64,000 nucleotides of DNA, from assembly GCF_029360805.1 (NCBI RefSeq), contig NZ_JARKNC010000010.1, positions 547,287 through 611,286 of the forward strand, in the 5' to 3' direction. Origin of the DNA: Daejeonella sp. JGW-45. Its GTDB lineage: Bacteria; Bacteroidota; Bacteroidia; Sphingobacteriales; Sphingobacteriaceae. The position numbers were made by a program, and so were the translations under genes. Of the stretch, positions 38,729 through 60,964 are shown piece after piece (positions within the stretch are counted from its first letter, which is position 1; every line of letters starts with the position of its first letter). The notes beneath the pieces are model-generated. The model did no database searches, was not told the origin of the DNA, and was given only the letters and a program-made list of their open reading frames with translations.

Positions 38729-39001
38729 CTACGGTATTAATCTGAACGTACCGGCTACTTTTTCATCCCTGATATAAGTTCCGCCTGAATTTGGGTCTCC
38801 ATCATAGATCTCTGTGCAAACAGCACTTGATAAATCACATTCGGAGGTGGAGCCTGACGGTAAATTATTAAGATCATAATACTGTTGTGTGGCCTGATCG
38901 AAGCCCCATTCACTTTGAACTACCGGTTTAAACGCACTACCTGTAAGGGCGAGGGTAACGCCTATTAGAAGCGCTACTACTCCAAAATTTAATTTTTTCA
39001 T
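38729..39001 (-). CDS. DUF6520-like small secreted protein
   Basis: From the ATG at 39001 the protein has 90 residues. A leader (VALLIGVTLALTGSAF) is followed by a short polar peptide with WGFDQATQQYYDLNNLP and two cysteines in SECDLSSAVCTEIYDG. This is the DUF6520 layout seen in Sphingobacteriaceae and Flavobacteria, always as small exported proteins next to MauE-like genes. The paired cysteines suit oxidation or modification by the nearby TlpA/MauE redox proteins. The role is unknown. It starts 85 bp downstream of the MauE-like gene's stop. Confidence 0.7.
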   Translation of the reverse strand: MKKLNFGVVALLIGVTLALTGSAFKPVVQSEWGFDQATQQYYDLNNLPSGSTSECDLSSAVCTEIYDGDPNSGGTYIRDEKVAGTFRLIP

Positions 39002-39086
39002 GATTTTTTTATTTAAATGTTTAACATATATAACTGAGAGCTTTATGAAATGACTGGCCTCTGGCTTCACATTTCCTGAGTTTTGG

Positions 39087-39551
39087 TCATGCTTGCTGGC
39101 TACCTCCTTTCTCACTGGTAAAAGTTTTTTCAGCAAAAGCTTTCTCCTGCTCCATAAAGAATATAGCCATTGATGTTATTGCAATAAAAAAGATATTGAA
39201 GGTTAAGTGTTGGCTCCAGCTCATTTTTTCAAGAACGCCTCCGCAGCTGCATGGAATGCGGCCGAAGATGTTACTCATAACAAGGCCGATGTATACCGTA
39301 AAGTTGAGAAGAAGGAAAGCAGAAGCATAAAGCCCAAAAAGCTTTGTTTTTGAAAAGAGTAATAAAGCGCTTGTTATGAGCTCAGCGGTTGGTACCATCC
39401 ATGCCAGGATCTTTGCTATACTGTTTGAAAATACCTGGTTGAGCATCTGGTTACGGCTGCGGTCAAAATCAAGTAGTTTGCTTAGTGAGGCATAAACCCA
39501 AAGGACAACGAGAAACGCGACTATTATAGACGTAATTGAAGTCCTTTTCAT
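39087..39551 (-). CDS. MauE/DoxX-like membrane protein
   Basis: This 154-residue protein has four membrane helices in the DoxX/MauE arrangement (WVYASLSKLLDFDRSRNQML at the start). A Cys pair, GRIPCSCGGVLEKMSW, follows the third helix. MauE-type proteins are thought to help form or shuttle disulphides of exported partners. It is upstream of the small DUF6520 protein, which has two cysteines, so it may oxidise that product. The CSCGG motif is seen directly; the role is inference. Confidence 0.8.
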   Translation of the reverse strand: MKRTSITSIIVAFLVVLWVYASLSKLLDFDRSRNQMLNQVFSNSIAKILAWMVPTAELITSALLLFSKTKLFGLYASAFLLLNFTVYIGLVMSNIFGRIPCSCGGVLEKMSWSQHLTFNIFFIAITSMAIFFMEQEKAFAEKTFTSEKGGSQQA

Positions 39552-39607
39552 GTCAGTAGATATTGATGATGTAAAGAAAAAGTACTAAAGGGAAAAAAAA
39601 CTTCCCT

Positions 39608-39823
39608 TTACTTTTTCACTCCTTTTTTCAGTAAATATTTTTGTAATGAGCGGGAATAATGGATATCATGTCCCTCCTCTCGCAGCTCGTTTATCCAGGT
39701 CGCAATTGTCCTTTCCGTACAACCGAAAAGACGTGAAGCTTGTCTTCGGGAAATGAACCTGCCTTTTTCAAGCATGTTCAGGATCCTTTGCAGGTTTTGA
39801 TGATGTGAACGAAAGGAGCTCAT
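39608..39823 (-). CDS. Small helix-turn-helix protein
   Basis: This 71-residue protein consists almost only of a winged-helix/HTH unit: FISRRQASRLFGCTERTIAT then WINELREEGHDIHYSRSLQK, an HTH_11-type pattern with the recognition helix at about 34-45. It is presumably a local transcription regulator. Its start region lies 228 bp from the divergent LanB gene, so it may control LanB or the MauE/DUF6520 pair downstream (56 bp away). A second, overlapping frame at 39768-40028 is considered spurious. Confidence 0.75.
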   Translation of the reverse strand: MSSFRSHHQNLQRILNMLEKGRFISRRQASRLFGCTERTIATWINELREEGHDIHYSRSLQKYLLKKGVKK

Positions 39824-40051
39824 ATAGATCGGTCAGTTTCATAGGTTGAGAGCCGGGAACTTTATTCCGGTAAGCAATTGCTGAAGATGATCTACCGGGC
39901 AGTTTCCGGCCCTTCCGTTCCAATAATTTCCTGATTATTTGCAGATGTACAAATTTTTTTACACCAACTGGAGATTTTGCGTGATGACCACGGGAAATTA
40001 GCGGACGAAATCTAATGCCGGAGGTCATGATGTCATTATTTTGGGATACCT

Positions 40052-42904
40052 ATGAAAGTCTATGATCTATATCCCAGGATGGTTTTACGGATACCGCGTT
40101 TCCCTGTAAATAAAGCAGCCGAACCCCTTGATGAAATGCTGAAAAACCCGGTATTCAGAGATGCACTTTTTCTTGCAAGTGATGTATTGGATGGGGAATT
40201 AAACCGCAATGATTTTCAACTTAGGAATTGCAGCAAAAAAATGAAACATACCCTAATGAAATATCACAAGCGGATATGTTACAGGCCGACCCCTTTCGGA
40301 GCTTTTGCTGGAATAGCCATTTTCCCCTGGAATGAAACAAAAGATCCTGAAATTGTCGTTAGCGAGGATGCATTTGAGACACTGGTGATTAAAAAGAGCC
40401 TAACTGACCATCATTCCGGCATCTTGTTTGAGGAAAATCACTACAGGGTAAACCCATTTCTATATCCTTATGGGACAGATTACAGAGTTCTGAAGAAGGA
40501 TGAAAAAGATAGGGGAAACACTTTTTCTATCGCAGAGATCTTTGCCTCTGATGTGATAAGGAACCTGGCAGATTGTAAACACACAATCAGCCGGGAATCA
40601 CTTTTAGATTTACTTCATAACAGCAGCATTGACAAGAATGAACTCGATTGGTATGTAAATGAATTGATCGCCTTGCAGATCATTATGCCTCATAAATATC
40701 CATGTAGATCGTTTCCATATCCGTTAATGCCGGAACATAAAGAGCTTCCCGGATCTTCCTATGATTCTTATTGCCGTGTTTCAGTTACCGGCTCCCATCC
40801 CGTTGGTTTAAACCGGCAGCTTCAGGATGCTGTACACTGCCTTGAGAAATTAAGCAGCAGGTATGAGCCTAAGGCTTTGACCCATTTTAAGGATCGGTTC
40901 AGAAAGCTGTTTGACAGGAAAGAAGTGCCCCTTCTACAAGCGCTTGACCCGGAGATGGGTGTTGATTATGCAGGTCTGAGTAATGACCTTCTGATTGAGA
41001 AACAGACTAAAATGCCGGAACGTATAACCTGGACACCCATGCATGAACTGCTGCTTAGTAAATGGACAATGCAGTCCGGTTATGGTATACCCGAAATTGA
41101 ACTGATTGATCAGGATCTTTCAAAACTGAACGTCACGCACAAAACTTATCCGCCGGGGGCCTCGGTGGTTTTCTCAGTGATTGGTGACAAGGTGTTCATA
41201 AGAGCGGCGGGTGGTGTGAGCGGGCTTAATATGATCGGACGCTTTACGGTTCTCGACCCCGGTATCCTGGATCTTGCAAAAGATATCGCGCAAATAGAAA
41301 TGAAGCATAACCCGGATGTTCTTTTTGCGGAGATCTCTCATCTTGACAGCGCTAACCTTGCAAGCGTAAAGAGCAAGGCGATGGTTTATGACTATCAGAT
41401 TCCCTTTTTTGATCATCCTGAAGTTCCTGATGATTTTGTGATAAAGCTGAACGATTTATACATTTCAATTGTCGATGATTGTTTGCATCTCAGATCTGCC
41501 AGGCTAAACAAGCGGATCATTCCCCGGTTCAGCAGTGCTTACAATTATCACAACAGTTCACTTCCCATCTTCCGGTTTCTCTGTGATCTGCAATACGAAG
41601 GAACTGATCCAATCCTGAATTTCAGTATGACTGATCTGTTTCCCGGATTACCTGCATATCCAAGGATCAGATATAAGAATATAATACTGGAAGCCGCCAC
41701 CTGGTATCTTGATGCAAAACCCCTTGTTGAATTAAAAAGTTTAGATTCGCATTCCCAGATCCGGGGATTCAGATCAATTGCTGTCGAAATAGGTCTGCCG
41801 GAAGAATTTTGCTATGTGATGCATGATCATTTACTTTATATAAAGCTTTCCTGTGAGAAGGATGTTCTTTTATTGCTGCAAGAAGTCCCCTTTTCCGGAA
41901 AGATCATACTAAAAGAATATTACAAGGATCAGGAAACTTTGGTTAATGATAAAAAGGGAAATTCCTATACTCATGAATGGATTGCCTTTATGATGAACCG
42001 GGAAAAGTCGTATTCTTCTCACATTCACCGTCCGGGATTATTACCGTGGGGTATAACGAAAAAGGATAAGCTGTTCCCTTTTGATGAATGGCTGTATTTT
42101 AAGATCTACCTGCATCCGGCAGGGTATACCGACCTTTTAGTGAATTATATACACCCTTTTGTTTCGGAAAATTTCCGACAGGGCAACATATCTTCCTGGT
42201 TTTTCATCAGTTACTGCGATCAGAATTTCCATTTAAGGGTAAGACTGAAACAAATGCCGGGAAGAGAAATTATGGTTTTGAAAACATATAAAATACTGGA
42301 ACAGAATTTTCGAGAATTGCCAAACTTGAAAAGGATTGAGCTATCAACGTATATACCAGAAATGGAAAGGTATGCTGTGATAGGAATTCAACGTGCAGAA
42401 GAGCTCTTTGAGTTAAGCAGTGAAATAGTATTATCCAGTCTTCGACAGTTCAAACTATCCCATTATTCGGTACGGGATAAGCTTTTTGTCGCAATAAAAC
42501 ACGTTTTTATGGGCTGTTTGAGTATCGGGCTCGACTATCATAAAATAGAAGAAGTTTCTAAATCAATTTCCTGTCATTTAACCAAAAGCCAAAAAGTTGA
42601 ATTTGATTTAGAATTCCGAGAACACAAAAAGGATCTATGGGCATTGATGCTCGAAACAGAAAAGGGAATTGTCGAGAAAAAGTATATGATCCGGCTCCGC
42701 ACAGTAGCAGAATCGCTTGAGCCTGATGAAAAGTTACACTTGATGACAGATCTAAACCACATGCATCTTAACAGGCATTACCTCCATGATCAGCCATTTT
42801 TTGAGGTTAAAACCTATTATTTTCTTTTTAAAATGACCAGAATGCTAATTAGCTATCAAACCCCTTTCTACGATCTGAAGAAAAAGTTCTGTTCTTTATC
42901 TTGA
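40052..42904 (+). CDS. Full-length lantibiotic dehydratase (LanB-type)
   Basis: This 950-residue protein has the two-part layout of LanB enzymes. The N-terminal glutamylation region contains RICYRPTPFGAFAGIAIFPW near 76 and PRIRYKNIILE near 540. The C-terminal SpaB_C/thiopeptide-type elimination domain carries LPWGITKKDKLFPFDEWLYF and FFISYCDQNFHLRVRLKQMP. These enzymes use glutamyl-tRNA to dehydrate Ser/Thr in a peptide. No LanC cyclase, protease or dedicated ABC transporter was found near it. Neighbours are a small HTH gene upstream and a convergent two-component system, whose regulator gene overlaps its 3' end by 56 bp. A possible substrate is the Thr-rich 47-residue peptide at 44757-44900. 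Confidence 0.92.
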   Translation: MKVYDLYPRMVLRIPRFPVNKAAEPLDEMLKNPVFRDALFLASDVLDGELNRNDFQLRNCSKKMKHTLMKYHKRICYRPTPFGAFAGIAIFPWNETKDPEIVVSEDAFETLVIKKSLTDHHSGILFEENHYRVNPFLYPYGTDYRVLKKDEKDRGNTFSIAEIFASDVIRNLADCKHTISRESLLDLLHNSSIDKNELDWYVNELIALQIIMPHKYPCRSFPYPLMPEHKELPGSSYDSYCRVSVTGSHPVGLNRQLQDAVHCLEKLSSRYEPKALTHFKDRFRKLFDRKEVPLLQALDPEMGVDYAGLSNDLLIEKQTKMPERITWTPMHELLLSKWTMQSGYGIPEIELIDQDLSKLNVTHKTYPPGASVVFSVIGDKVFIRAAGGVSGLNMIGRFTVLDPGILDLAKDIAQIEMKHNPDVLFAEISHLDSANLASVKSKAMVYDYQIPFFDHPEVPDDFVIKLNDLYISIVDDCLHLRSARLNKRIIPRFSSAYNYHNSSLPIFRFLCDLQYEGTDPILNFSMTDLFPGLPAYPRIRYKNIILEAATWYLDAKPLVELKSLDSHSQIRGFRSIAVEIGLPEEFCYVMHDHLLYIKLSCEKDVLLLLQEVPFSGKIILKEYYKDQETLVNDKKGNSYTHEWIAFMMNREKSYSSHIHRPGLLPWGITKKDKLFPFDEWLYFKIYLHPAGYTDLLVNYIHPFVSENFRQGNISSWFFISYCDQNFHLRVRLKQMPGREIMVLKTYKILEQNFRELPNLKRIELSTYIPEMERYAVIGIQRAEELFELSSEIVLSSLRQFKLSHYSVRDKLFVAIKHVFMGCLSIGLDYHKIEEVSKSISCHLTKSQKVEFDLEFREHKKDLWALMLETEKGIVEKKYMIRLRTVAESLEPDEKLHLMTDLNHMHLNRHYLHDQPFFEVKTYYFLFKMTRMLISYQTPFYDLKKKFCSLS

Positions 42905-43586
42905 GATGAAGATTTTTTCTATACATAGGTCCGACTGATAAAACCGCATCGTTTTCCATAGTTAGCTCATTATTGATCATTCGACGTATCCTGTCAAGAT
43001 TCACCACATAACTTTTATGGATCTTAAAAAAATTATTCCTGTTTAGTTTGAACTCAAATTCCTTGAGGGTCAGATAAGTGACATGCATACTCCGTTCTGT
43101 ATAGAGCTTAACATAGTTTGACAATGATTCCACATATAGTACTTCTTCGAAATAAATTTTAATCACCTCGCCCTGATTGTTGCCCCGGATGAAAAAGTAG
43201 TTTTCTTCTACTACGTGGTTATTTTGTATCAGGCCCTGTACCTTGATGACTGCCTGTAAAAACCGCGAGTAAGAAATAGGTTTAACAAGAAAATCATAGG
43301 CTCCTTTATCAAATGCTTCGAGTGCATGCTCTATATGTGAAGTAATAAATATAACAGCCGTATGGGAGTTGATGAGGCCCGCCAGTTCAAGTCCGGTAAT
43401 ACCCGGCATTTCAATATCTAAAAAAGTGATCTTTGGTTTTCCTAGTTTAGTGATTACAGAAAAGATTTCCCTTGGATTAGTGGTAGAAAAAATAAGCCTG
43501 AGATCCGGTGTTTGGTTGATATAATCTTGCAAAATTTCAATTGAATCGACTTCATCGTCTACGATATAACAATTATAGTCTGCCAT
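42849..43586 (-). CDS. LytTR-family response regulator
   Basis: This 245-residue protein has a receiver domain with acidic DDE near 10, phosphoacceptor FLDIEMPG near 57 and KPIS near 103. A LytTR DNA-binding domain follows, with VLYVESLSNYVKLYTE near 150 and FFKIHKSYVVNLDRI near 190. LytTR proteins usually bind paired direct repeats. It forms an operon with the sensor kinase (one base between kinase stop and this start). Its last 56 bp overlap the end of LanB on the other strand. Confidence 0.93.
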   Translation of the reverse strand: MADYNCYIVDDEVDSIEILQDYINQTPDLRLIFSTTNPREIFSVITKLGKPKITFLDIEMPGITGLELAGLINSHTAVIFITSHIEHALEAFDKGAYDFLVKPISYSRFLQAVIKVQGLIQNNHVVEENYFFIRGNNQGEVIKIYFEEVLYVESLSNYVKLYTERSMHVTYLTLKEFEFKLNRNNFFKIHKSYVVNLDRIRRMINNELTMENDAVLSVGPMYRKNLHLKIKNRTFSSDRRKGFDS

Positions 43587-43587
43587 A

Positions 43588-44664
43588 TTATTTGAGATTA
43601 ATTACGAGTTTGAGATTAAATATATCCTGATCAGCAAAGTATTCAAGCACATACCGGTCCGGGTAATGAAGATCCAGCCGTTTACGTGTATTAGTCAGTC
43701 CTACCCCATTTCTTGGTGTGTTATCACCCCTTATATAATTCTTCGTTCGCAACCTTAACTCTCCCTGAAAAGTTAAAATTTCGATAAGTGGAACTGTTTG
43801 AGGATTTTGCAGGTCGCCATGCTGAAAAATATTTTCAATTAAGGTGATCAAAAGCATTGGAATAATCTTTAATTCGCAGTCATCAATGGAAGTATTGAAG
43901 TTAATAGCCGGGGAATAACGCATTCCTTGAAGCTCTATGTATCTATTAATATGCTCTATTTCAGATACAAGTAAAACTTCTTCTGTAGAATTCCGGGATT
44001 TAAGGGCAGAGCGCATGAGTTCGGCCATAGCCAGTAAATATTCAGCGCTGACCGTATCCTTTTTGCGTACACGGTTATAAATTGAATTTAAAAAACTGAA
44101 GATCAAATGCGGATTGATCTGTGAGCGCAGGAAGGCCAGTTCCGAACTGGCCAGTTCCATGCGCAGGGTTGCCTTTTCCTTTTCTGCGATCAGGGTTTGT
44201 GTATTATAATCGTGAATTCGCTGGCGGTTTCTAATTAGATTCAAGGTGACACGGTACGCAGTGCTCAAACCCATAATATAGATGCATCGGTATACAATTG
44301 CTAATTGAAATAATCTTGATGAGCTATCGGTAACATTAACCGGAATCCCTGAAGAAACCAGGAGCTTGTTTATCCCTACGCTAATAAGGTAATAACAGGA
44401 AATTACCAGCAGCAAATGCAACAACGACTTCCGGTAGTCGCTAATCTGTTTAAATCGCTTATTTCCGAGTACAACGTAACAGTGGACATAGAATAGTAAA
44501 ATGTTAAGCAGATAATGAAGGAAGTAATCAGCAAAATGATTAAATCTTTCCCGTATAGCTGCCGCCAAAGTGATCTCGTAGAGTATAAAAATCGTCCAGA
44601 ATAAAATGTGGTAATGAACGACAGTAATCCTTTTCCCGGTTACATTAAATATAATATCACGCAT
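43588..44664 (-). CDS. LytS/HisKA_7TM-like sensor histidine kinase
   Basis: From the ATG at 44664 the protein has 358 residues; a TTG at 44685 is less likely. Four or five membrane helices in the first 150 residues are followed by a His_kinase domain. LRSQINPHLIFSFLNSIYNR near 190 carries the phosphorylated His, with the usual 'NPHFLFN' changed to 'NPHLIFS'. The ATP site has PMLLITLIENIFQHGDL and NGVGLTNTRKRLDLHY. It senses an unknown signal at the membrane and passes phosphate to the LytTR regulator. The 47-residue peptide gene starts 92 bp away on the opposite strand, so peptide sensing is plausible. Confidence 0.9.
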   Translation of the reverse strand: MRDIIFNVTGKRITVVHYHILFWTIFILYEITLAAAIRERFNHFADYFLHYLLNILLFYVHCYVVLGNKRFKQISDYRKSLLHLLLVISCYYLISVGINKLLVSSGIPVNVTDSSSRLFQLAIVYRCIYIMGLSTAYRVTLNLIRNRQRIHDYNTQTLIAEKEKATLRMELASSELAFLRSQINPHLIFSFLNSIYNRVRKKDTVSAEYLLAMAELMRSALKSRNSTEEVLLVSEIEHINRYIELQGMRYSPAINFNTSIDDCELKIIPMLLITLIENIFQHGDLQNPQTVPLIEILTFQGELRLRTKNYIRGDNTPRNGVGLTNTRKRLDLHYPDRYVLEYFADQDIFNLKLVINLK

Positions 44665-44756
44665 AACGCTCGCTTTATCACGCAAAAAAATGAGTTGATG
44701 TAAAAGATTCTTCTTGAATCAGTGAGAACGCTACTTTAAATAAAAATCTTATAGCT

Positions 44757-44900
44757 ATGAAGACATTGAAAGTAACAAAGTCCCTAATGAAAAAGGAAAA
44801 CTGCTTCACATTCGGTCAGGTCCGGCAGCAAAAAGCGCCAGGTATAGATCCTACAGTGATTATAACCACAACGGTTACACACATTTTCCCTCAACGTTAA
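44757..44900 (+). CDS. 47-residue Thr-rich peptide, possible RiPP precursor
   Basis: The short gene starts at ATG 44757 and ends in TAA at 44898-44900, with a rho-independent terminator 17 bases later. The N-terminus is basic and leader-like (KTLKVTKSLMKKENCFTFGQ). The C-terminal half is GIDPTVIITTTVTHIF, with five Thr in eleven positions and one Cys far upstream (residue 16). LanB-type enzymes dehydrate Thr/Ser, so this could be a substrate of the LanB at 40052-42904, though Cys-poor cores do not form normal lanthionine rings. Alternatively it is a signalling peptide for the divergent sensor kinase. No homologue is claimed. Confidence 0.5.
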   Translation: MKTLKVTKSLMKKENCFTFGQVRQQKAPGIDPTVIITTTVTHIFPQR

Positions 44901-44917
44901 GACAACGACAAAATCTT

Positions 44918-44948
44918 AAAGCTTCCAGCAGGAGGCTTTATTTTTTTG
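44918..44948 (+). terminator. Rho-independent terminator after the Thr-rich peptide gene
   Basis: AAAGCTTCC and GGAGGCTTT pair over nine positions with one mismatch, around AGCA, followed by a T-rich tract (seven T). It supports the peptide gene being a real single-gene transcript. Confidence 0.85.
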
Positions 44949-45299: not shown

Positions 45300-45878
45300 A
45301 TGATAAAAGCGACTCTTGAATACAAATCTCTGGTATTAGATATACTGACAGCTTCTTTCATGGACAACAAGAGCGTTAATTATATTATTCCGCAAGGCGA
45401 TCAAAAGCATAAAAGAATACGTTCGCTCATGGATTATTCTTTTGAGGTATGTTCTCTATTTGGAAAAGTCTTGCTTTCCGATGATCGCAAAGCCTGTGCT
45501 CTACTGGTTTATCCCGACCAAAAACGAACAACTCTGAAGTCCATCTGGCTTGACACCAAACTCCTCTTTACCTGTATTGGAATTGCAAACCTGTTTAAGA
45601 CGATAGGTAGGGAAAGCAAGATCAGTAAGATCCAACCTAAAGAACGAATGTGCTATTTATGGTTCATAGGGGTCAATCCTATTGACCAGGGGTTGGGTAT
45701 AGGAAGTAAGTTGTTAAAGGAACTCATTATGGAATGTGAAAAGGAGGAACGACCGATTTTCCTGGAAACATCCACCATGAAGAATTTGCCTTGGTATAAA
45801 AAATTCGGCTTTGAAACTTACGCTGAACTCAAATTAACCTATACCCTTTATTTTATGAAAAGAAATTTGGACACTTAA
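45300..45878 (+). CDS. GNAT-family N-acetyltransferase
   Basis: This 192-residue protein has the acetyl-CoA-binding motif GVNPIDQGLGIGSKLLKELI near 122-141 (QGLGIG as the pyrophosphate loop). FLETSTMKNLPWYKKFGFE follows, the usual end of the GNAT fold. The substrate is unknown. It is 13 bp upstream of the LuxR-type gene in the same direction, and probably belongs to the accessory front of the conjugative element. Confidence 0.88.
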   Translation: MIKATLEYKSLVLDILTASFMDNKSVNYIIPQGDQKHKRIRSLMDYSFEVCSLFGKVLLSDDRKACALLVYPDQKRTTLKSIWLDTKLLFTCIGIANLFKTIGRESKISKIQPKERMCYLWFIGVNPIDQGLGIGSKLLKELIMECEKEERPIFLETSTMKNLPWYKKFGFETYAELKLTYTLYFMKRNLDT

Positions 45879-45891
45879 AGACTGGATATAT

Positions 45892-46812
45892 ATGCTGGTA
45901 CTTGGAACAGAGATGCATGTAGTGACTTTCATCTTCGTGCTACTAGAACTGATCATGTTCGGTTACCAGCTCTTTCATTATTTGTCCAGGCCGCAGGACA
46001 AAGCCAGATTATGGTATCTGATCTTGTTATTTCTCCTGATTGTTTATAATATCACAGGAGGACTATTTCCAGACTCGAAAATTACCTCAATTCCTATAGT
46101 TACCCAGAACATCATAGCCTATGGAAGCGGTTTTTTAATGGCTTCCTACTTTCCTTATTACTTTTATAAAGGTTTTGATTTGAAGAAACTTCGCTTTCAT
46201 GCAATTTATGGAGTTCTTTTATTTTTGATACTACCGTACCTTATTTTCTTTGTACTGGTGTATTCCATTGATAGAAATCTTGATTTTGCTATCAGGAATG
46301 GGATAATTGTTCCGTTCTTTTACTCTATTATAGTACTTTGGGCAATTTTAAGGGCTATCCGGTTAAAATATAAGGGTGACAGGAGCAGGGCAACATTCAT
46401 CGAGGTCGTCGCGGTCTACCTAGCAGTTATTCCCTGGGTGATGATGACCGTAATCGCCTATTTTAATTTAGGACAGTTGATTGAAGTCATCTGTACAAAC
46501 GGCGGCTTTGTGGTCATCACGATCATGTTCATCTCTAAATCAGTCACCCAGGCAAGACTTGAGTATCAGCAACTGATGGATATTACCATAAACGGAGTGA
46601 GGCCTTCTGCGTTCCAGGACAATTGTACAAAGTATAAGCTTACCAACCGGGAAATTGAAATTGTACAGCTGCTCAGACAGGGCAGTAAATATCAAACTAT
46701 CGGGGAAAAGCTTTTTATCTCTGAACTGACGGTAAAGAAGCACGTCCATAATGTTTTCGAAAAAATGGGTGTTAATAATAAGGTTGAATTGATCCATAAG
46801 ATGGAACAATAG
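45892..46812 (+). CDS. Membrane-bound LuxR-type transcriptional regulator
   Basis: This 306-residue protein has seven predicted membrane helices in its first 220 residues (for example LWYLILLFLLIVYNITGGLF). The C-terminal LuxR/GerE helix-turn-helix reads KLTNREIEIVQLLRQGSKYQ then FISELTVKKHVHNVFEKMGV. It looks like a one-component sensor that reads a membrane or outside signal and binds DNA directly. It lies just upstream of rteC, separated by 194 bp containing paired AAATACTCCT repeats that may be its target. Confidence 0.88.
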   Translation: MLVLGTEMHVVTFIFVLLELIMFGYQLFHYLSRPQDKARLWYLILLFLLIVYNITGGLFPDSKITSIPIVTQNIIAYGSGFLMASYFPYYFYKGFDLKKLRFHAIYGVLLFLILPYLIFFVLVYSIDRNLDFAIRNGIIVPFFYSIIVLWAILRAIRLKYKGDRSRATFIEVVAVYLAVIPWVMMTVIAYFNLGQLIEVICTNGGFVVITIMFISKSVTQARLEYQQLMDITINGVRPSAFQDNCTKYKLTNREIEIVQLLRQGSKYQTIGEKLFISELTVKKHVHNVFEKMGVNNKVELIHKMEQ

Positions 46813-46860
46813 CCCCTGCCCGTTGCATCAAACCCCTCATTACTCTTATACTTCGCGTGA

Positions 46861-46892
46861 AAATACTCCTTTTGATGTAGGTAAATACTCCT
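46861..46892. promoter_or_regulatory. Paired direct repeats upstream of rteC
   Basis: AAATACTCCT occurs at 46861-46870 and 46883-46892, a 22-base period. The second copy is followed by GTATTT, completing an AAATAC/GTATTT inverted pair. Such two-turn spacing suits a LytTR or LuxR-type activator of the gene at 47007. Confidence 0.5.
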
Positions 46893-47006
46893 ATTAGCGT
46901 ATTTATACCCACACCCTATTTACTCAATTTTGTCCTAATATCCTGTCCATTGTGAGAGTTATCGCCAGTAAACAGGCAGGCGGGATTTACTTTAATCTAC
47001 TGCTAT

Positions 47007-47888
47007 ATGTTAATCAAGTACACAGAAGAATTGTATGCTCAGATGGAAGCGCAATTGGAAAACATTAATGGATCATTGAAGGAAGCTATTCAGAATTTAA
47101 CGGAATCGCTCTTTTGTATTACAACTACTTTAAATCATTTAAAGAAGTTTATACAGGAGCACCCTTTTAAAGATCCCGAGGATGAGATTGATTTTTTTAA
47201 GAATATTAAGCCAAGATTTTACTGCTGGTATATTTATGTGATTGAGCTATATCAGATACTTTCAGCCGTACCCAGCGGTACAGATCAGATGATCAGAGAT
47301 TTTTTTATGGATGAGCTAAAGATCATTAATAGATATTTTACCATTCATCAGTTTTATTACCAGTACTTCCTACGGAGCGAGACCGCGCTGGATGACAGCT
47401 ATTTTCTGCGTGTCAACCTCGTTCCTTTTCCAACGGGCTCTGAACAGACCGCTGTTGATCCTGAGTTCTCTACTAACCAGGATTATATGTTCTCCAAATT
47501 TCGAGCTTACGAGATGCTGAGATCATTCCTGATCAGGAGGCTAAAACTTCTTTACCAAAACCCGGATAATGTTTTTATCGCCGAGTTACTTGCCGGTAAA
47601 AGAAAATGTTGGTCTGGTGACAAAGTAGAACTGATTGAAGTTGCCTATGGGATCTATTATACCCATAGACTAAATGAAGGCAAAGCAGAAATCGGGGATG
47701 TTATTGAATGGCTGGAAGATAGTCTTCAAATTGATCTAAGCCAGGCTTACCGTATGTTCCTTGATATCCGCAGGCGAAAAACACTTAGTTATACGAAATA
47801 TCTGGACGAAATGCGTGACTCAATCCACAAGCACATCGATGAAACGAACCGTTATAAACCAAAGACTCCCAAGCGACAAAATATGTAA
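47007..47888 (+). CDS. rteC: RteC-domain regulator of conjugative transfer
   Basis: This 293-residue protein matches RteC, the CTnDOT regulator that switches on excision genes. FFKNIKPRFYCWYIYVIELY near 73 is the RteC signature. FFMDELKIINRYFTIHQFYYQYFLR follows near 105 (split here for length: FFMDELKIINRYF, HQFYYQYFLR). A helical C-terminal domain has VELIEVAYGIYYTHRLNEGK. It is a DNA-binding activator with winged-helix-like parts. Its position before the toprim and mob genes matches CTnDOT-like elements. The promoter region has paired direct repeats. Confidence 0.9.
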   Translation: MLIKYTEELYAQMEAQLENINGSLKEAIQNLTESLFCITTTLNHLKKFIQEHPFKDPEDEIDFFKNIKPRFYCWYIYVIELYQILSAVPSGTDQMIRDFFMDELKIINRYFTIHQFYYQYFLRSETALDDSYFLRVNLVPFPTGSEQTAVDPEFSTNQDYMFSKFRAYEMLRSFLIRRLKLLYQNPDNVFIAELLAGKRKCWSGDKVELIEVAYGIYYTHRLNEGKAEIGDVIEWLEDSLQIDLSQAYRMFLDIRRRKTLSYTKYLDEMRDSIHKHIDETNRYKPKTPKRQNM

Positions 47889-48041
47889 TTGCTTAGCGCT
47901 GTCAATAAATCTTTACCAATATTTTGAAGTTGGTAAAGCCCCTTCTGCATCATCCACAACTTTGTTCCCAGTGACAACACGATCTTTGACATTGGGGGAC
48001 GAAACATTATCCTGCGAGAAGCGGGAAATTTTGCGAAGGTG

Positions 48042-48159
48042 AGATTATATCAATAATCTGAAAGCGCATTGGCAGGCGAGGGCCCGGTTCGTAGGAACCG
48101 ACGTGAGTAATCCCGAATATATAGAACCAGTATCCGCATAAATTTGGTGCGGATACTGG
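48042..48159 (+). promoter_or_regulatory. Series of hairpins between rteC and the toprim gene
   Basis: Three perfect stems occur: AGATTAT/ATAATCT (48042-48059), CGGTTC-GTAG-GAACCG (48085-48100), and CCAGTATCCGCA/TGCGGATACTGG (48127-48159). The last is a 12-bp stem with a 9-base loop, followed by GTTAACC. The 349-bp gap carries no ORF. They could be attenuators, or the RteC-bound inverted repeats known from CTnDOT. Confidence 0.5.
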
Positions 48160-48237
48160 GTTAACCAGGGGGCAATTTTGCCCCTTTTGTGTTTATATAC
48201 TATTCAAAATACTATCAATAAACTTAATTTATATGTT

Positions 48238-49206
48238 ATGTTCTTAAATGCAAATGAGATCCGGGAGAAAGTTTCCCTTGTGGATCTGTTAGGCCGTTTG
48301 GGCTATGCTCCGGCTTATAAATCCGGCAAAGAGCTATTCTATCTTAGTATGCTCCGGGAAGAAAAAACAGCATCGCTTTGCGTCAATGAGCAACTGGGAT
48401 TATGGTACGATCATGGCGGGCCAAACCGCTCCGGTATTAAAGGAGGGAATGTAATCGACCTCGGGCTAGCCTACTGGTTCCCTCTTTCCTTTGCAGAAGT
48501 GCTTGAAAAGATTAAGGATACCTGTTCAGTTGAAATTTCAAAAACCCCTGCTCAGAGAGATCTGACTCAAAAAAGCAGGCCCAGGATTGCCGTTAAACTC
48601 CCAAATTATAAAATTGAAGAGATAAAACCACTGGGCAGCAATCCCGCCATTACCGGTTACCTACAATATAGAGGGGTATGGGAAACTGCTACGGAACATC
48701 TGAAAGAGATTTACTATTATATAGAGGACATGAAGAAAGATCGAAAGCTTTTCTTTACAGCAGGATGGAAAAATGAGAATGGTGGGTGGGAAGTGCGAAA
48801 TAAGTATTTTAAAGGCTGCCTGGGTAAAAAGGGAATGAGCTTTATTCAGGGAGAAGATAATCGATTAGCCGTTTTTGAAGGATATTTGGATTTCCTAAGT
48901 TGGAAACATGAGCAAGCACTAAACAAGCCAACTGTTTTAATCCTTAATTCCTTGTCTTTTATCTCAGCTGCTATTGACCGTGCTTCCAAATTTGAAGTGG
49001 TGGATGTGTTTTTTGACCATGATCAATCCGGTAAGCAAGCCACGAAGCAACTGCTATCCGCCATTCCTCATGCCAAAGATCGCTCAGATCTATACAATGC
49101 ATATAATGATTACAACGAGAAACATATGGCAGATCAAGCTTCGCTATTTCGCATGAAAACCTCCAACGATGTCTTTAAAAACCTTAAAGTTGGTTTTAGC
49201 AGGTGA
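48238..49206 (+). CDS. Primase-like zinc-finger/toprim protein of the conjugative element
   Basis: From the ATG at 48238 (MFLNANEI...) the protein has 322 residues; the TTG-started extension from 48178 is rejected. The N-terminal part resembles a CHC2-type primase zinc finger but lacks an intact Cys/His set (GKELFYLSMLREEKTASLCV, YDHGGPNRSGIKGGNVIDLG). A toprim domain follows, with LAVFEGYLDFLSWKHEQ near 209 and VVDVFFDHDQSGKQATKQLL near 251-270 (Glu and DxD catalytic acids). Such proteins accompany CTn transfer modules and may prime the incoming strand. Confidence 0.82.
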   Translation: MFLNANEIREKVSLVDLLGRLGYAPAYKSGKELFYLSMLREEKTASLCVNEQLGLWYDHGGPNRSGIKGGNVIDLGLAYWFPLSFAEVLEKIKDTCSVEISKTPAQRDLTQKSRPRIAVKLPNYKIEEIKPLGSNPAITGYLQYRGVWETATEHLKEIYYYIEDMKKDRKLFFTAGWKNENGGWEVRNKYFKGCLGKKGMSFIQGEDNRLAVFEGYLDFLSWKHEQALNKPTVLILNSLSFISAAIDRASKFEVVDVFFDHDQSGKQATKQLLSAIPHAKDRSDLYNAYNDYNEKHMADQASLFRMKTSNDVFKNLKVGFSR

Positions 49207-49393
49207 TTATTTATAATCCTGTTTTATACGGAAGGGATCAGGCCTTACCAGAACAGTTAGTTTTTTATCATGCAAAGGTATCCCAATCTGCTTTTAAACC
49301 GTCAAGGGTAGATAAACCCGATGAAGAATCGGGCCCTTGACATTTTAGCAGATCGCTTCTATACCATGCATTAAAAAACTAAATTTTATTGTT

Positions 49394-49993
49394 ATGGAAA
49401 GCTTGATTTTAAACCTTCAGTCAGAAAAAGTAATAAACAATTACATAAACGAGAACCATCTTGTAAAGTATGAGAGGGGGATCTTAAACGAGATCTTAAC
49501 TGCTATTAATGAAAGCGATTCCGGACTACTTTCCTGGTTTAACGGGTTTGGTACATCGTTAAGACATATCACCATGAATCTATATGCTTACCGTAAGCAA
49601 CTGGAATTTGGCTTTACTGAAATCAGTTTTGACCAATACGGCTGGTTTTTAAGACCTGAATTTTTAGACCGCGAGGATCTGATCTTTGGAAATCCAGACC
49701 GGTATTCAGAGCACAGCATTATTCACTTAGGGAGAGGTATATACCATATATGGACATACTCTCTTAATTATAGCTACGGTATGGCAGGTGGAGGAAGTTT
49801 TATATCGGTTTATGATAAACACTTTAAGAACCGTCAGGATGCATTAACCGCTGGGCTGAATGAGCTAAAGGAAATGATGTCATCAAAAGTTGGTAATAGT
49901 GATAACTCAAATTACAATCAATCTATACTGACTGCTACACTGAAGGACATTGCAAAGTTTGAGGTTAGTATGATTCAACTTAGCCTGTTTTAA
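49394..49993 (+). CDS. Conserved-looking protein of unknown function in the conjugative element
   Basis: This 199-residue soluble protein has no recognised domain. Visible traits are an amphipathic N-terminus (NLQSEKVINNYINENHLVKY), a Trp/Tyr/Gly-rich middle (GRGIYHIWTYSLNYSYGMAG), and a hydrophobic end (ISMIQLSLF-like, SMIQLSLF). It sits between the toprim gene and the candidate oriT, a location where CTn elements often carry hypothetical proteins. It stands alone, with 187 bp before and 350 bp of AT-rich DNA after it. Confidence 0.6.
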   Translation: MESLILNLQSEKVINNYINENHLVKYERGILNEILTAINESDSGLLSWFNGFGTSLRHITMNLYAYRKQLEFGFTEISFDQYGWFLRPEFLDREDLIFGNPDRYSEHSIIHLGRGIYHIWTYSLNYSYGMAGGGSFISVYDKHFKNRQDALTAGLNELKEMMSSKVGNSDNSNYNQSILTATLKDIAKFEVSMIQLSLF

Positions 49994-50342
49994 ACAGCTT
50001 TTGTATTGTTAATTCCTGCTAATCCTTTATACAAGTTGCTGGATAGTCGTATATACGGATAGCTACCTATTTGTATAAACAACTTTTTAAATAGCCTGAT
50101 AACTGAATAACCATATATACAATTACCGGCTTATATAACTAAGCTCATAGCGATATATATAAATAGATATTTAGAGGTTAATTTATATATCTGTTTATGC
50201 CTTAATCTAAATAGCCGATCATAATCATAGCCAGGAAGTCTAATCCAAGCCATAAGAAGAGCCCCAGAAAGCTTTAGCCTTTATATACATTAGCATACCA
50301 TCTTCTTTAAACGGTATTAGCCCTAGTCTTTGTTTTTTTACC
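49994..50342. other. AT-rich non-coding stretch before the oriT candidate
   Basis: About 350 bases have no ORF. They contain scattered TATATA-type blocks (for example GTATATACGGATAG, CTTATATAAC, TATATATAAATAG). GGATAG occurs twice within 30 bases near 50041. No clear iteron array was resolved; the low stability suits a strand-opening region beside oriT. Confidence 0.35.
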
Positions 50343-50444
50343 GGCAAGTTGTGTTTTTGGGTACCCAAAAACTCACTTGCCTTTGACCAGCCTAACCCCT
50401 GAAGGGGAAAGGCTGGACAAAGGAGTGAAAAACCGCGCAACTTG
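50343..50444. other. Candidate origin of transfer (nested palindromes)
   Basis: GGCAAGT (50343) and ACTTGCC (50375-50381) enclose the 18-bp perfect palindrome TTTTTGGGTACCCAAAAA (50354-50371). Next, CTTTG, CCAGCCT, CCCCT (50381-50400) pair exactly with AGGGG, AGGCTGG, CAAAG (50403-50422), interrupted only by symmetric A/A and AA/AA bulges. CAACTTG at 50438-50444 repeats the first arm in inverse. The block lies just upstream of the MobC-type and relaxase genes, the usual place of oriT. Confidence 0.65.
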
Positions 50445-50483
50445 GTTTTTCTGCAAAGCGCCTTAAAGCCCATCCGAAGCCTA

Positions 50484-50894
50484 ATGAAGAAAGCAACTAA
50501 GAAAGTCGGCAGGCCGGAAATGGCATCCGGAAAACGAACTAAGATCATTAAAGCCAGGCTGACAGAAGACGAATTTAATCAGATCTTGATTATTGAAAAA
50601 GGCCTCGGTATCACTCGTATGGAACTCATCCGGACCAGAGTGCTTTACAATTCAAATAAGGTTTTGGTTGATGCAGGGGAGCTTTTAAAACAGCTTGATG
50701 CTATCGGCGCAGAAATGGGCAGAGGTGGAAATAACATTAATCAACTGGCCAGACATGCTAATATACTCAATAATGAAGGGTTGCTCACTGAAAGCGTAGC
50801 CAGAGAATTTAATGAACTTTTTCGATCCTACATTAATATCCAACGAGAATTGGAAAAAGGGATCCGGCAAGTTATTCGACTGATGAAATCTTAA
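50484..50894 (+). CDS. MobC-type relaxosome accessory protein
   Basis: From the ATG at 50484 the protein has 136 residues; a TTG 42 bases upstream is in frame but unlikely. A basic ribbon-helix-helix region (TKIIKARLTEDEFNQILIIE) is followed by the mobilisation motif IGAEMGRGGNNINQLARHAN near 77-96, typical of MobC/MocB-like proteins that bind oriT and assist the relaxase. It lies between the palindromic oriT candidate and the relaxase gene, whose start is 3 bp after its stop. Confidence 0.88.
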   Translation: MKKATKKVGRPEMASGKRTKIIKARLTEDEFNQILIIEKGLGITRMELIRTRVLYNSNKVLVDAGELLKQLDAIGAEMGRGGNNINQLARHANILNNEGLLTESVAREFNELFRSYINIQRELEKGIRQVIRLMKS

Positions 50895-50897
50895 TCT

Positions 50898-52124
50898 ATG
50901 ATTGTAAAAATCCTCGATAAATCCGCAGCCTTTAAAGGGGTAAGTTATAACACCAGCAAGGTCGAAAATGATAAAGGCGAACTCATGAGGGTACAAAACT
51001 TCGGGGCTCTACAAGGTTTGGATTGTTTACGGCCACAGGATTATATCAATTACCTTGAAGCTCAATCTGCCCAAAGCACCCGGACAAAGTTTCCGCAATT
51101 CCATGGTGTTATTTCGGCCAAAGGAAGATCGCACAGCAAAGAGCAGCTAACTGACATTGCAGAGCAATGGCTTAAAGGAATGGGCTACAGAAATCAGCCT
51201 TATCTGCTGATTTTCCATAAGGATACGAAGAACAACCACATACACATGGTTACCACTCGCGTGGGAAAAGATGGCAGGAAGATCTCTGATTCTTATGAAA
51301 AAATAAGAGCATACCAGGTATTAAACCGGGTATTAGGGATGGACGAAAACAAGGTTGCGATAGCAGATATTCAAAATGCTTTATTATATAGTTTTTCCAC
51401 CCGGGCGCAGTTCATGATGATTTTAGAAGCACAGGGTTATGCCCTGACTTTAACAGTAACGGATTATAAGATCAGCAAGTTTGGTAAAGAACTGTCTCAA
51501 ATGCCAATAAAAAAGATAGATGAGAAAATAGCTGACCATCAAAAAGATAAAGAGCGTATCAGCCAGCTGCGGTCGATAATTGAAAAATACAGGCTAAAAG
51601 TAAATCCAGAAATTTATACCGTAACTCATGATCTTCCCGGAGGAAAGAAAAAAACAATAACCGGCTATTCTTCTAACCTGGCTGAAATGCTTAAGGCTAA
51701 GTTCGGAGTTCAAATACTATTCCATGCGAAAGATGGTAACTCACCTTATGGATACACCATCCTTGATCATGCGCGGAAAGCTGTTTTTAAAGGTAGCGAA
51801 GTCATGTCCTTAAAAGAGTTTATTGACCCTTTACAACCCGGAATAAAACAGGAAACATACCCCGAATTTTCTGAAATAATGAAAGGGATTTCTCAAGACA
51901 ATCTGTCTTTTGGTGAGGAAACTCTTAAGGAATATTCAAGTGAAAATCAAAATCCAGATGAATCTCATGCTTTGAATGCTGAAACTTCAGCCGATCCGTA
52001 TGATACAGGAATATCAGGTGAGCTGCCTGAACTGCAAATAGATATTGCTACTGACATTGATGATGAAGCGATATACGGCCGGAATCGGCGCAAGAAAAGA
52101 AAATCAAGAACAAACACCCGATAA
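50898..52124 (+). CDS. MobP-type relaxase/mobilisation nuclease
   Basis: This 408-residue protein has the relaxase domain in its first 160 residues. SYNTSKV near 17-23 holds the candidate catalytic Tyr. HGVISAKGRSHSKEQL carries the first His, and YLLIFHKDTKNNHIHMVTTR near 109-125 has the HxDxxxxHxH metal-binding triad. Such enzymes nick oriT and attach to the 5' end. The C-terminal 200 residues are charged and unfamiliar, ending in NRRKKRKSRTNTR, a basic DNA-binding-like tail. The ParA-like traA follows after 18 bp. Confidence 0.9.
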   Translation: MIVKILDKSAAFKGVSYNTSKVENDKGELMRVQNFGALQGLDCLRPQDYINYLEAQSAQSTRTKFPQFHGVISAKGRSHSKEQLTDIAEQWLKGMGYRNQPYLLIFHKDTKNNHIHMVTTRVGKDGRKISDSYEKIRAYQVLNRVLGMDENKVAIADIQNALLYSFSTRAQFMMILEAQGYALTLTVTDYKISKFGKELSQMPIKKIDEKIADHQKDKERISQLRSIIEKYRLKVNPEIYTVTHDLPGGKKKTITGYSSNLAEMLKAKFGVQILFHAKDGNSPYGYTILDHARKAVFKGSEVMSLKEFIDPLQPGIKQETYPEFSEIMKGISQDNLSFGEETLKEYSSENQNPDESHALNAETSADPYDTGISGELPELQIDIATDIDDEAIYGRNRRKKRKSRTNTR

Positions 52125-52142
52125 CTTTATAAAATTTATGAA

Positions 52143-52778
52143 ATGGTTATACTAATAGGCAACCAAAAAGGCGGCGCAGGCAAGAGTACGCTCACCCTGC
52201 TATTTGCCAATTATTTAGCTACCATTCGCAACCGAAGGGTAACTGTACTAGACATGGATTACCAGCAGTCCATCGTTTCCAAATCTGAAAAAGCGAAGAT
52301 TTTAGAAAATGAACCGGACTATGAAGTGATCCCCTCAGATCTCAAACATTTTCCCATGCTGCTAAATGTGTTAAATAAGAATAAAGGGGAGATCGTACTC
52401 ATCGACTTGCCAGGCAAGATGGACGATGATGGCCTGATCCCCGTGTTCCTGGCCGGAGATATGATTTTATGCCCGTTTAATTATGATGAATTTTCAGTAG
52501 ACTCAACCCTGCTGTTTGCAATGGTCGCCCGGAAAATTAATAATCATGCGCCATTTATTTTTATTCCCAACCGTATCAAAAATACGGTGAAATACGAAAC
52601 CAGGCTTGAAGTGGAAAAGGTATTACAACGTTTTGGTGTAATTACGCCCGGCATTGCTGACCGCGTAGACTTCCAAAGGATCAGTACGGTACATACACCT
52701 CTTATCCTGTTACCGGTAATCCTTCCGATCCTTGATCTGGTTTATGAAGCATATCTTTTGAAGGAGGAACAGCCATGA
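52143..52778 (+). CDS. traA: ParA-like ATPase (TraA of CTn elements)
   Basis: This 211-residue protein has a deviant Walker A, IGNQKGGAGKSTLTLLFANY, at residues 4-23, VTVLDMDYQQS near 38 and EIVLIDLPGKMDDDG near 80. It has the classic ParA/MinD fold. In CTnDOT-like elements TraA is the first gene of the tra operon, with an uncertain role in transfer or partition. It overlaps the next gene by 4 bp. Confidence 0.88.
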   Translation: MVILIGNQKGGAGKSTLTLLFANYLATIRNRRVTVLDMDYQQSIVSKSEKAKILENEPDYEVIPSDLKHFPMLLNVLNKNKGEIVLIDLPGKMDDDGLIPVFLAGDMILCPFNYDEFSVDSTLLFAMVARKINNHAPFIFIPNRIKNTVKYETRLEVEKVLQRFGVITPGIADRVDFQRISTVHTPLILLPVILPILDLVYEAYLLKEEQP

Positions 52779-53134
52779 CTGGTATTAAATCCCTTGCCGA
52801 CGAACTTAGAGAAAAGATCCGATCACAGGACACAGAAAATGCGGTAACCCCGAAAGGAAACCCTCCTGAAAAATCTAAAAAGCCTTTTTCACTTAAAGCA
52901 ACCGATAAGGAAATTACATCCCTGTTTGGTGCCCTTGATGCGTACGAGCTTTGCGGCTCTGACAAAATGCTTATTCGCCTTGATACCCGGACAACCAATT
53001 TGCTAAAGCAACTAAAGCTGGCAAAAGGCATTGACATGAACAAATTCATTGCCTACAGCCTGCAAGTTTTCCTGGAGCAGCATCCCTGGCTCAGCTCTTA
53101 TATTAAAGAAACCCTTAAAAACACAGACTTATGA
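52775..53134 (+). CDS. TraB-like protein with ribbon-helix-helix features
   Basis: This 119-residue protein has a charged, disordered N-terminal half, then KMLIRLDTRTTNLLKQLKLA and IDMNKFIAYSLQVFLEQHPW, typical of DUF3408-like DNA-binding proteins next to TraA. The ATGA overlap with traA and the next gene suggests coupled translation. It may be the DNA-binding partner of the ParA-like protein. The name TraB is by position only. Confidence 0.65.
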   Translation: MTGIKSLADELREKIRSQDTENAVTPKGNPPEKSKKPFSLKATDKEITSLFGALDAYELCGSDKMLIRLDTRTTNLLKQLKLAKGIDMNKFIAYSLQVFLEQHPWLSSYIKETLKNTDL

Positions 53135-53475
53135 CATGGACAAATTTTTTATTGATCTTACTAGTGATTTATCTTACCTACTATGGGCTGAATGTAATCT
53201 TTGATCTTTTTATGACCCGCAAACAACCAGGGTCCGAAAGTGATCAGGAGGTATTGTTTTTTAATGAAGATACCAGCCCTGAACTGATTACTTATGAAGA
53301 AGAGTCGGAAGCTCCAGCACCTCCTTCGGCACCGGAAAACCCAGAGCCGGACGCTCCAAAACAGTCCAACTTTACTTCGGGTCTGCTTAGATCAACCGGA
53401 GCCGTGGGCATCAAAGAGCTATTCAATCTGGCAAAGGATGACCTCATCGAATATACCAGAGCGATCCCTTATTAA
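53131..53475 (+). CDS. Small membrane-anchored protein of the tra operon (TraD-like by position)
   Basis: This 114-residue protein has one membrane helix (FLLILLVIYLTYYGLNVIFD at 5-24), then an acidic, proline-rich linker (APAPPSAPENPEPDAPKQS) and a short helix at the end (GAVGIKELFNLAKDDLIEYT). There is no known activity. The 4-bp overlap with the upstream gene places it in the transfer operon. The Pro/Glu spacer suggests a periplasm- or cytoplasm-spanning link. Confidence 0.6.
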   Translation: MTWTNFLLILLVIYLTYYGLNVIFDLFMTRKQPGSESDQEVLFFNEDTSPELITYEEESEAPAPPSAPENPEPDAPKQSNFTSGLLRSTGAVGIKELFNLAKDDLIEYTRAIPY

Positions 53476-53529
53476 ACTTTATAGCTTATGCGCATGATTT
53501 CTTCACGTTCACCTTAATCAAATTCCAGG

Positions 53530-53853
53530 ATGAAAATCATTCCTCAATTTTTGAAGGCAGCTTTGGCTGCCTTTTTTGTTGCCTTGCCTTTTTGTTGCTT
53601 TGCTCAACAACCACCAGGTATAAATGAATTCTATCAGGTAAGCGGCGAAATGCACCGCTGGTATTTCAGTCTGTCCGATCTGGTTTTGGTGATCGGTGCG
53701 ATCAGCGGGATACTCGGAGGTCTGCGAATCTATACCAACTGGCAATCCGGCAAACATCATCACATCGATGCTCAAGTTATGGGCTGGTTCTTTTCCTGCT
53801 TGTTCTTAACGCTGATCGGTGCCTTTCTCAGAGCTCTGTTCGGGGTCAATTAA
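53530..53853 (+). CDS. DUF4134 protein (TraE-like), first copy
   Basis: This 107-residue protein has a signal segment ending in FAQQ, two membrane helices (SDLVLVIGAISGILGGLRIY and GWFFSCLFLTLIGAFLRALF), and a short polar loop with HHHID between. The layout is that of VirB2/VirB3-like pilin proteins (DUF4134) in CTn elements. It is followed 38 bp later by a second, sequence-related member, so this element carries two. Confidence 0.8.
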   Translation: MKIIPQFLKAALAAFFVALPFCCFAQQPPGINEFYQVSGEMHRWYFSLSDLVLVIGAISGILGGLRIYTNWQSGKHHHIDAQVMGWFFSCLFLTLIGAFLRALFGVN

Positions 53854-53891
53854 CTCTTCATTTAAACATTAACCTTTTAATTCTTACTCTT

Positions 53892-58296: not shown

Positions 58297-58300
58297 TCTT

Positions 58301-58963: not shown

Positions 58964-58965
58964 CG

Positions 58966-59745: not shown

Positions 59746-59755
59746 ACGAATAGCT

Positions 59756-60898: not shown

Positions 60899-60964
60899 CA
60901 CATTATTCTTTAACTCCGATTTGGCTGCTCTAACGGGTGGCCATTTATTTTAAATCCAATCTCG

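Follow-up and report, generated by a model that had tools for sequence, protein, structure and literature searches.

A LanB dehydratase, a LytS/LytTR sensor pair and a threonine-rich peptide gene recur together in the Sphingobacteriaceae

Genes at the locus and a complete LanB

The locus described here lies in a 64,000 nt stretch of Daejeonella sp. JGW-45 (contig NZ_JARKNC010000010.1, positions 547,287 to 611,286, hereafter the window), a member of the family Sphingobacteriaceae whose 4.1 Mb genome is available as 10 contigs (97.6% complete). It contains a gene for a LanB dehydratase facing those for a LytTR-family response regulator and a LytS-type sensor histidine kinase, on whose other side a short gene encodes a peptide with a Lys-rich N-terminal and a Thr-rich C-terminal half; we refer to these four genes as the cassette (Table 1). 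A first-pass annotation, made from the letters alone, had claimed a complete LanB with both the glutamylation and elimination domains, a two-component system that it faces, and a 47-codon gene with five C-terminal Thr and its own terminator. All of these claims hold, supported respectively by Pfam domain hits with a near-full-length NisB profile match, by confirmation of the Response_reg/LytTR regulator and the PF06580 kinase, and by a conserved peptide family together with a stem and U7 terminator.

Table 1. Cassette genes and associated features, in window coordinates
Feature	Position	Strand	Evidence
LanB dehydratase, 950 residues, glutamylation and elimination domains	40052..42904	+	Pfam; NisB profile match; counterparts of catalytic residues
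LytTR-family response regulator, 245 residues	42849..43586	-	Response_reg and LytTR domains; homologue in 76/80 LanB loci
LytS-type sensor histidine kinase	43588..44685	-	PF06580 E 3.5e-18; no other domains
Precursor peptide gene (47 codons); N-terminal half rich in Lys, C-terminal half rich in Thr	44757..44900	+	Held-out family model; L034 homologue
Two-block site ATCACGC-N10-GTTGRTGTAAAA, between peptide and kinase genes	44677..44705	+	Perfect match, 1 of 2 genome-wide
Same two-block site in divergent promoter region of LanB and helix-turn-helix (HTH) gene, reverse orientation	39957..39985	-	Second perfect match in genome
Intrinsic terminator of peptide gene	44917..44947	+	10-bp stem, U7, shuffle z-score -5.3

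Both LanB domains occur in one protein (Lant_dehydr_N, E 2.9e-73; Lant_dehydr_C, E 8.6e-37; Pfam), and a LanB profile of 18 relatives matches NisB (4wd9, E 4e-74) over nearly its full length as well as MadB (9g04, E 6e-102). Window LanB residues R74, R78, T80, R729, R731, E770, R773 and H903 correspond to NisB R83, R87, T89, R784, R786, E823, R826 and H961, which we take to be catalytic. Six of these are invariant across 18 LanBs, in which T80 is conserved at 90% or more; all except T80 occur in at least 95% of 83 kinase-linked LanBs (L033, described below, included; R773 at 95%) and in 6/6 LanC-linked LanBs. L233, with a stop in its LanB translation, was excluded from the alignment (A4), and L050 (10 bases) was dropped. 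The predicted structure (mean predicted local distance difference test 74, predicted template modelling score 0.62) finds MadB, NisB and MibB as its best solved-structure matches, at modest template modelling scores of 0.55-0.59 normalised by query length. With its catalytic residues intact, the window LanB, the only one in its genome, gives no sign in its sequence of being a dead enzyme. Used as a single query against a named genome collection it found no relative, and a tight six-sequence alignment yielded 19 named loci; viral contigs contained one distant LanB, and plasmids 50 records with LanB-like matches, at 23-28% identity for the 15 among the matches listed.

The kinase and regulator form a LytS/LytTR system as defined by a PF06580 kinase with a Response_reg-LytTR regulator. 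The kinase open reading frame (ORF) was called from a TTG at 44685, and the in-frame ATG at 44664 seems the more likely start. Its N-terminus is hydrophobic, with three segments above cut-off and a fourth suspected by eye, and Pfam recognises no separate sensor domain besides PF06580. Hydrophobic N-termini of this kind, accompanied by no other domain, are seen in membrane peptide-sensing kinases and equally in many others.

A conserved cassette and its peptide family

To describe the cassette more widely we used 80 loci including the window, drawn from the LanB matches listed for 399 genomes of the family, mostly the best ones; some genomes contribute two loci, and two LanC-positive genomes of the same genus (L117, L118) are included as contrast. 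Kinase and regulator lie within the stretch in 76 of the 80, no more than 300 nt from LanB in 69 of these. The first-pass annotation had suggested looking near LanB homologues for a small Thr-rich ORF next to a divergently oriented LytS gene. This succeeded in 75 of the 76 kinase-bearing loci, where a short Lys-then-Thr-rich ORF is divergent to the kinase gene; in the remaining locus, L062, the kinase gene is truncated by the end of the contig. The 75 include a copy lacking an in-frame ATG at the usual place (L102) and a locus with a short kinase ORF and its peptide 1.5 kb away (L091). LanB without such a peptide, an arrangement the same annotation had counted against its own proposal, occurs in four loci, three of which are accounted for: L117 and L118 are LanC-type loci, and L033, with neither kinase nor peptide in its stretch, has both on another contig. 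The fourth, L109, is a true exception and is taken up below. The association of LanB, kinase, regulator and peptide genes is thus a recurrent one. Other neighbour families (ORFs of at least 100 residues, clusters present in at least five loci, among at most 40 listed, named by eye unless Pfam was run) occur in 19/80 loci or fewer, the next commonest being a SusC-like receptor (19 loci). These frequent families include no recognised exporter, protease or LanC, apart from some in a few fixed chromosomal contexts.

We built a hidden Markov model (HMM) from 57 peptides, holding out those of the window, L034, L035, L036 and L048, and with it searched the 80 loci, the window at its full length, as 23,911 stop-to-stop ORFs. 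It recovered the held-out peptides of the window (E 2.2e-5), L035 (1e-5), L048 (9e-5) and L034 (9e-4) and missed that of L036 (E 1.1). At E < 0.1 it matched 84 ORFs: all but one of the 62 curated peptides (61), plus 23 ORFs that are further copies or members in loci beyond the curated set. All 84 are situated upstream of a kinase gene and divergent to it, and the four kinase-less loci contain none. The L034 homologue (genome G042), which adjoins the same kinase, is 50% identical to the window peptide over 46 residues. Scans of 46 peptides gave no convincing Pfam or NCBIfam family: each database returned seven families with a single peptide per family (best E 0.035 in Pfam, 0.011 in NCBIfam), and these weak matches to unrelated models, including Shiga toxin subunits, were taken as chance. 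The window peptide is more than a chance reading frame; it is a real gene with a terminator.

Composition was described for the 62 curated peptides (one per locus, hand-chosen starts); because Thr, Ser and Lys content was among the grounds for choosing this set the figures are not independent, and the held-out matches are. Thr makes up 25% of the C-terminal half and Thr plus Ser 33%, against 15% Thr plus Ser in the N-terminal half, and the last 25 residues contain a median of 6 Thr (range 3-11). Cys is absent from 48/62 and occurs in the C-terminal half in 6/62. In the window peptide the five Thr fall in DPTVIITTTVT and the single Cys is residue 16, in agreement with the first-pass annotation, which had placed the sole Cys in a leader-like half and thought normal lanthionine rings unlikely. 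A majority consensus (n=46) reads M-K, K-L-K-x4-F-x-F, D-P-T and a Thr-rich stretch. The retrieved text of PMC7268733 gives FxLD and, for class I leaders of Bacteroidetes, LxLxKx5L as leader motifs; the former occurs in 0/62 and the latter in 1/62 of our peptides. A double glycine (GG) between residues 15 and 40 is present in 8/62, and the window peptide has no GG site. Tandem arrays of five to eight near-identical precursor copies matching the HMM sit between the kinase and regulator genes in L157-L160, L171 and L172, two of the L158 copies being incomplete.

The peptide is found where LanB is found. In a draw of 400 genomes of the order the peptide model matches 150; the 136 of these shared with the LanB search are all LanB-positive, compared to 218/399 overall, and the remaining 14 all have LanB by the Pfam model, for a total of 150/150. 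This count is not a probability because the genomes are related. A class-wide draw of 395 genomes gave seven peptide matches, all in the window's family. LanB and peptide distances are strongly correlated across 66 loci (Mantel r 0.80; maximum of 1000 permutations 0.11), and in 15 of 16 comparisons within genomes that have two or three cassettes, the peptide is nearer to that of the LanB's closest foreign relative than to another peptide of its own genome. This shows that LanB and peptide are inherited as a unit, which does not by itself prove the peptide to be the substrate.

LanC, export and a shared two-block site

No LanC (PF05147) was matched in the window genome, and none in 13 of 20 genomes of relatives with LanB. 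The first-pass statement that the locus lacks LanC and exporter therefore stands genome-wide for LanC and for the locus in the case of the exporter; two C39-peptidase ORFs are present in the genome, on contigs other than the window's. Of three marks of a class I lanthipeptide system, LanC, a core Cys and a leader motif, the window cassette shows none. Three of the 80 loci, L083, L117 and L118, gave a LanC match. The L083 LanC is part of a neighbouring cluster with a C39-like transporter (by eye); L118 has an ordinary precursor set, with several ORFs, leaders like LQLKKEKISNLTKEEM...GG and Cys-containing cores; and L117 has a GG-type ORF devoid of Cys. In a midpoint-rooted LanB tree the six LanC-linked LanBs lie apart from the kinase-linked ones. 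The tree was not used as proof of a separate group: the six alone form no split, and the nearest one, which joins them with four second LanBs, has a support of only 0.24. These second LanBs are divergent from the first, as in L060 (2348-5365), about 2.3 kb upstream of the kinase-linked LanB; L064, L067 and L076 have theirs at the same place, and LanC was not detected in any of the four stretches.

Outside the window's family BLAST detected LanC in 15 of 18 LanB loci (L201-L218), with GG-type, Cys-containing precursors in L209 and L216. Among these 15, L208 is arranged like the cassette: a Thr-rich peptide with no Cys is encoded divergently from the kinase, and its HMM match (E 0.028) is the strongest in L201-L220. 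Downstream of this peptide lies a LanC-like protein (L208:4022-5233) in which Asp and Ser replace a His and a Cys conserved in 15 other aligned LanCs, corresponding to the active-site His and a zinc Cys of NisC. To judge from these replacements, L208 looks like a locus in which cyclisation is being lost, the LanC-like protein possibly decaying or repurposed. Beside an ordinary system, a peptide-kinase-regulator module in L161 (9854-16753) adjoins an intact LanC, a LanB and a JmjC-like ORF (by eye).

The upstream regions of the window's peptide and LanB genes share a two-block site, ATCACGC and GTTGRTGTAAAA ten bases apart; one copy is 51 nt upstream of the peptide gene and the second, on the opposite strand, 66 nt upstream of the LanB start. 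These are the sole matches in the window with fewer than five mismatches; 12 simulated windows gave a single match in total within three mismatches. The 4.1-Mb genome contains just these two perfect matches and three more with two or three mismatches, compared to one match for a reversed control pattern. The two regions are identical at 23/29 positions, versus 19 or fewer in 60 resampled pairs. Because these two window sites are the ones that defined the pattern, fair tests of it lie in other genomes. The two best matches in 19.9 kb of G042 are upstream of peptide and LanB, with three mismatches each. In genome G114 LanB has no kinase nearby, and another contig holds a kinase (67% identity to that of the window), a regulator (75%) and a closely similar peptide; despite the separate contigs the best match in the LanB stretch precedes LanB, with two mismatches, and that in the other stretch precedes the peptide, with three.

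Beyond these genomes the picture changes. L035 has the site before the peptide only; in L048 the best match is elsewhere and the peptide-side match has five mismatches; and in L036, L037, L045-L047, L061 and L068 the window's form of the site is not at both genes among the five best matches. A GTGTAA core lies 46-90 nt ahead of the start in 32 of the 62 peptide genes (shuffled mean 2.5, maximum 9), and precedes only 5/61 LanB genes on each strand. A system-wide site before LanB was thus tested and not found, so we limit the claim to the window genome, G042 and G114; a regulatory loop through LanB is supported in the window's genus only.

A proposed ring-free autoinducer and its alternatives

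LanB enzymes carry out glutamyl-tRNA-dependent dehydration of Ser and Thr in leader-bearing peptides. According to the retrieved text of PMC9993889, peptides of Bacteroidota were fully dehydrated with GluRS and tRNA-Glu supplied. We propose that the cassette is a minimal system for a ribosomally synthesised and post-translationally modified peptide (RiPP), consisting of precursor, LanB, kinase and regulator. The Lys-rich leader half would be bound by LanB, which with glutamyl-tRNA would convert Thr to dehydrobutyrine, and some of the Ser to dehydroalanine, within the C-terminal half; as the modified part has no Cys and a cyclase is absent, the product would be ring-free. Export would be by an unlinked transporter, and the mature peptide would elicit a response of the kinase, with its hydrophobic N-terminus and no recognised sensory domain. 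The LytTR regulator would then act at the two-block site upstream of the peptide gene (and, within this genus, upstream of LanB too), closing an autoinduction loop. We give this reading, in which LanB dehydrates the peptide's Thr and the ring-free product is an autoinducer sensed by the kinase, a probability of roughly 0.6. Dehydration alone we judge to be more probable than the full scheme; binding of the regulator to the two-block site and export by an unlinked transporter are suggested parts of it.

Several observations temper this proposal. Sensing of the peptide by the kinase is suggested by gene order and the shared site. There is no recognised leader-cleavage site in the peptides and no linked exporter at the locus. 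The peptide of L113 is poor in Thr, and the LanB of L109, which falls among the kinase-linked ones in the tree, has neither kinase nor peptide in its stretch. Conversely, peptide and kinase occur with no LanB detected within about 10 kb on each side in L163, L166-L169 and L174 (the last with no regulator found at the threshold used); LanB lies elsewhere in these genomes, and could be used in trans by such modules or be unneeded. The shared site is not system-wide: by an unguided measure, the best 29-mer identity between the regions upstream of peptide and LanB in 61 loci, own pairs average 18.5 and mismatched pairs 18.2 (maximum 22), with the window and L068 at 23 and L034, the G042 locus, below 20. 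Finally, because the LanB-side copy lies in the divergent LanB/HTH promoter region, it may control LanB, the HTH gene or both; this HTH gene is also kept in G042 and G114.

The dehydrated peptide might instead be an antimicrobial or other effector, with the kinase sensing envelope state or a competitor's signal and switching the cassette on. Bacteriocin genes are commonly under two-component control, and the arrays of five to eight precursors would suit a product made in quantity, but neither an immunity gene nor a dedicated exporter was recognised among the frequent neighbour families, and the peptide gene, which diverges from that of the kinase, forms no operon with LanB; we regard this as unlikely, though well worth keeping in mind. 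It is less probable again that the peptide is an unmodified kinase signal while LanB works on another, unlinked substrate. The six LanB-distant modules point that way, as do those of L161 and L123, which stand beside LanB-LanC clusters (L161 with a reading frame resembling a Cys-rich ordinary precursor next to its intact LanC). Against this, every peptide-positive genome has LanB (150/150), one LanB but no LanC was found in the window genome, and peptide type tracks LanB type within genomes.

Two further alternatives rank lower. After dehydration by LanB the peptide could be crosslinked or decorated by a hidden enzyme, through a thiol adduct, addition of Lys or His, or an unrecognised cyclase: dehydroamino acids are thiol-reactive, LanC-like enzymes add glutathione (retrieved text of PMC9993889), and a LanC-like gene is kept next to the L208 peptide. 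No further enzyme is prominent among the frequent neighbour families, however, and the L208 LanC lacks a conserved Cys and His, leaving this a slim prospect. That the 47-codon ORF is spurious and the cassette a degenerate lanthipeptide cluster is hardly credible; the ORF is short and has no Pfam or NCBIfam match, but a family member stands at the same place in 75/76 loci, the held-out model finds it at E 2.2e-5 and it has its own terminator, so that conservation refutes this explanation. In its broadest form the preferred reading makes the ring-free, dehydrobutyrine-rich LanB peptide, sensed by LytS/LytTR, a Gram-negative family-wide pheromone that may time the transfer of conjugative elements where these adjoin, a tentative extension to which we give somewhat less than even odds.

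Known systems resemble the cassette in part. Like class I lanthipeptide systems (NisA/NisB/NisC; PedA15.2 of Pedobacter lusitanus and other Bacteroidota clusters), it has a full-length LanB with the same catalytic residues and a NisB/MadB fold, and a short precursor with a leader-like half. In contrast to them it has no LanC in locus or genome, a modified half that is mostly Cys-free, rarely a GG, no linked C39 exporter in the window, and a kinase and regulator in nearly all loci. Goadsporin and thiopeptide pathways use LanB-type glutamylation and elimination to a product with no lanthionine rings, by means of a split LanB and azole-forming enzymes. Their GodF, TbtB and TbtD are among the fold matches of the window LanB, but the cassette has one full-length LanB, and no azole-forming enzyme was recognised among its frequent neighbours. 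With Agr, Com and Fsr quorum sensing it shares a membrane kinase, a LytTR regulator and an adjacent small peptide gene; compared to those systems, it has a PF06580 kinase, LanB in place of an AgrB-like processing protein, and a Gram-negative host. In nisin autoinduction (NisRK) a LanB-modified peptide induces its own genes via a two-component system. This is the model for the proposed loop; nisin is ringed, and sensing in the cassette would be by analogy. The cassette kinase differs from NisK, which belongs to the OmpR-type family according to the retrieved text of PMC8895600.

If the proposal is true, the cassette would represent a class of RiPPs that a complete LanB modifies by dehydration only, and would provide a candidate signalling peptide for Bacteroidota. 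A combination of LanC-less LanB, LytS/LytTR and Thr-rich peptide is undescribed in the retrieved portion of the open-access literature, and priority is uncertain. A large lanthipeptide survey began from LanC-domain proteins (retrieved text of PMC7268733), a route that would miss this LanC-less group.

Some neighbouring features of the window may be mentioned. The convergent LanB and regulator genes share 56 nt at their 3' ends (42849-42904), and antisense coupling is possible. Divergent from LanB, positions 38729-39823 encode the HTH protein, a MauE-family membrane protein and a small exported-looking protein with no Pfam match; HTH and MauE homologues turn up again in several relatives. On the other side the cassette is adjoined by a conjugative-element module (45300-63205) with GNAT, a LuxR-type regulator carrying a seven-transmembrane-like part, RteC, Toprim, relaxase, ParA-like and TraG genes. 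GNAT and LuxR homologues also occur in L037, L088, L089 and L162 and RteC homologues in 7 loci beyond the window, and from this recurrence the cassette may lie on or beside conjugative elements.

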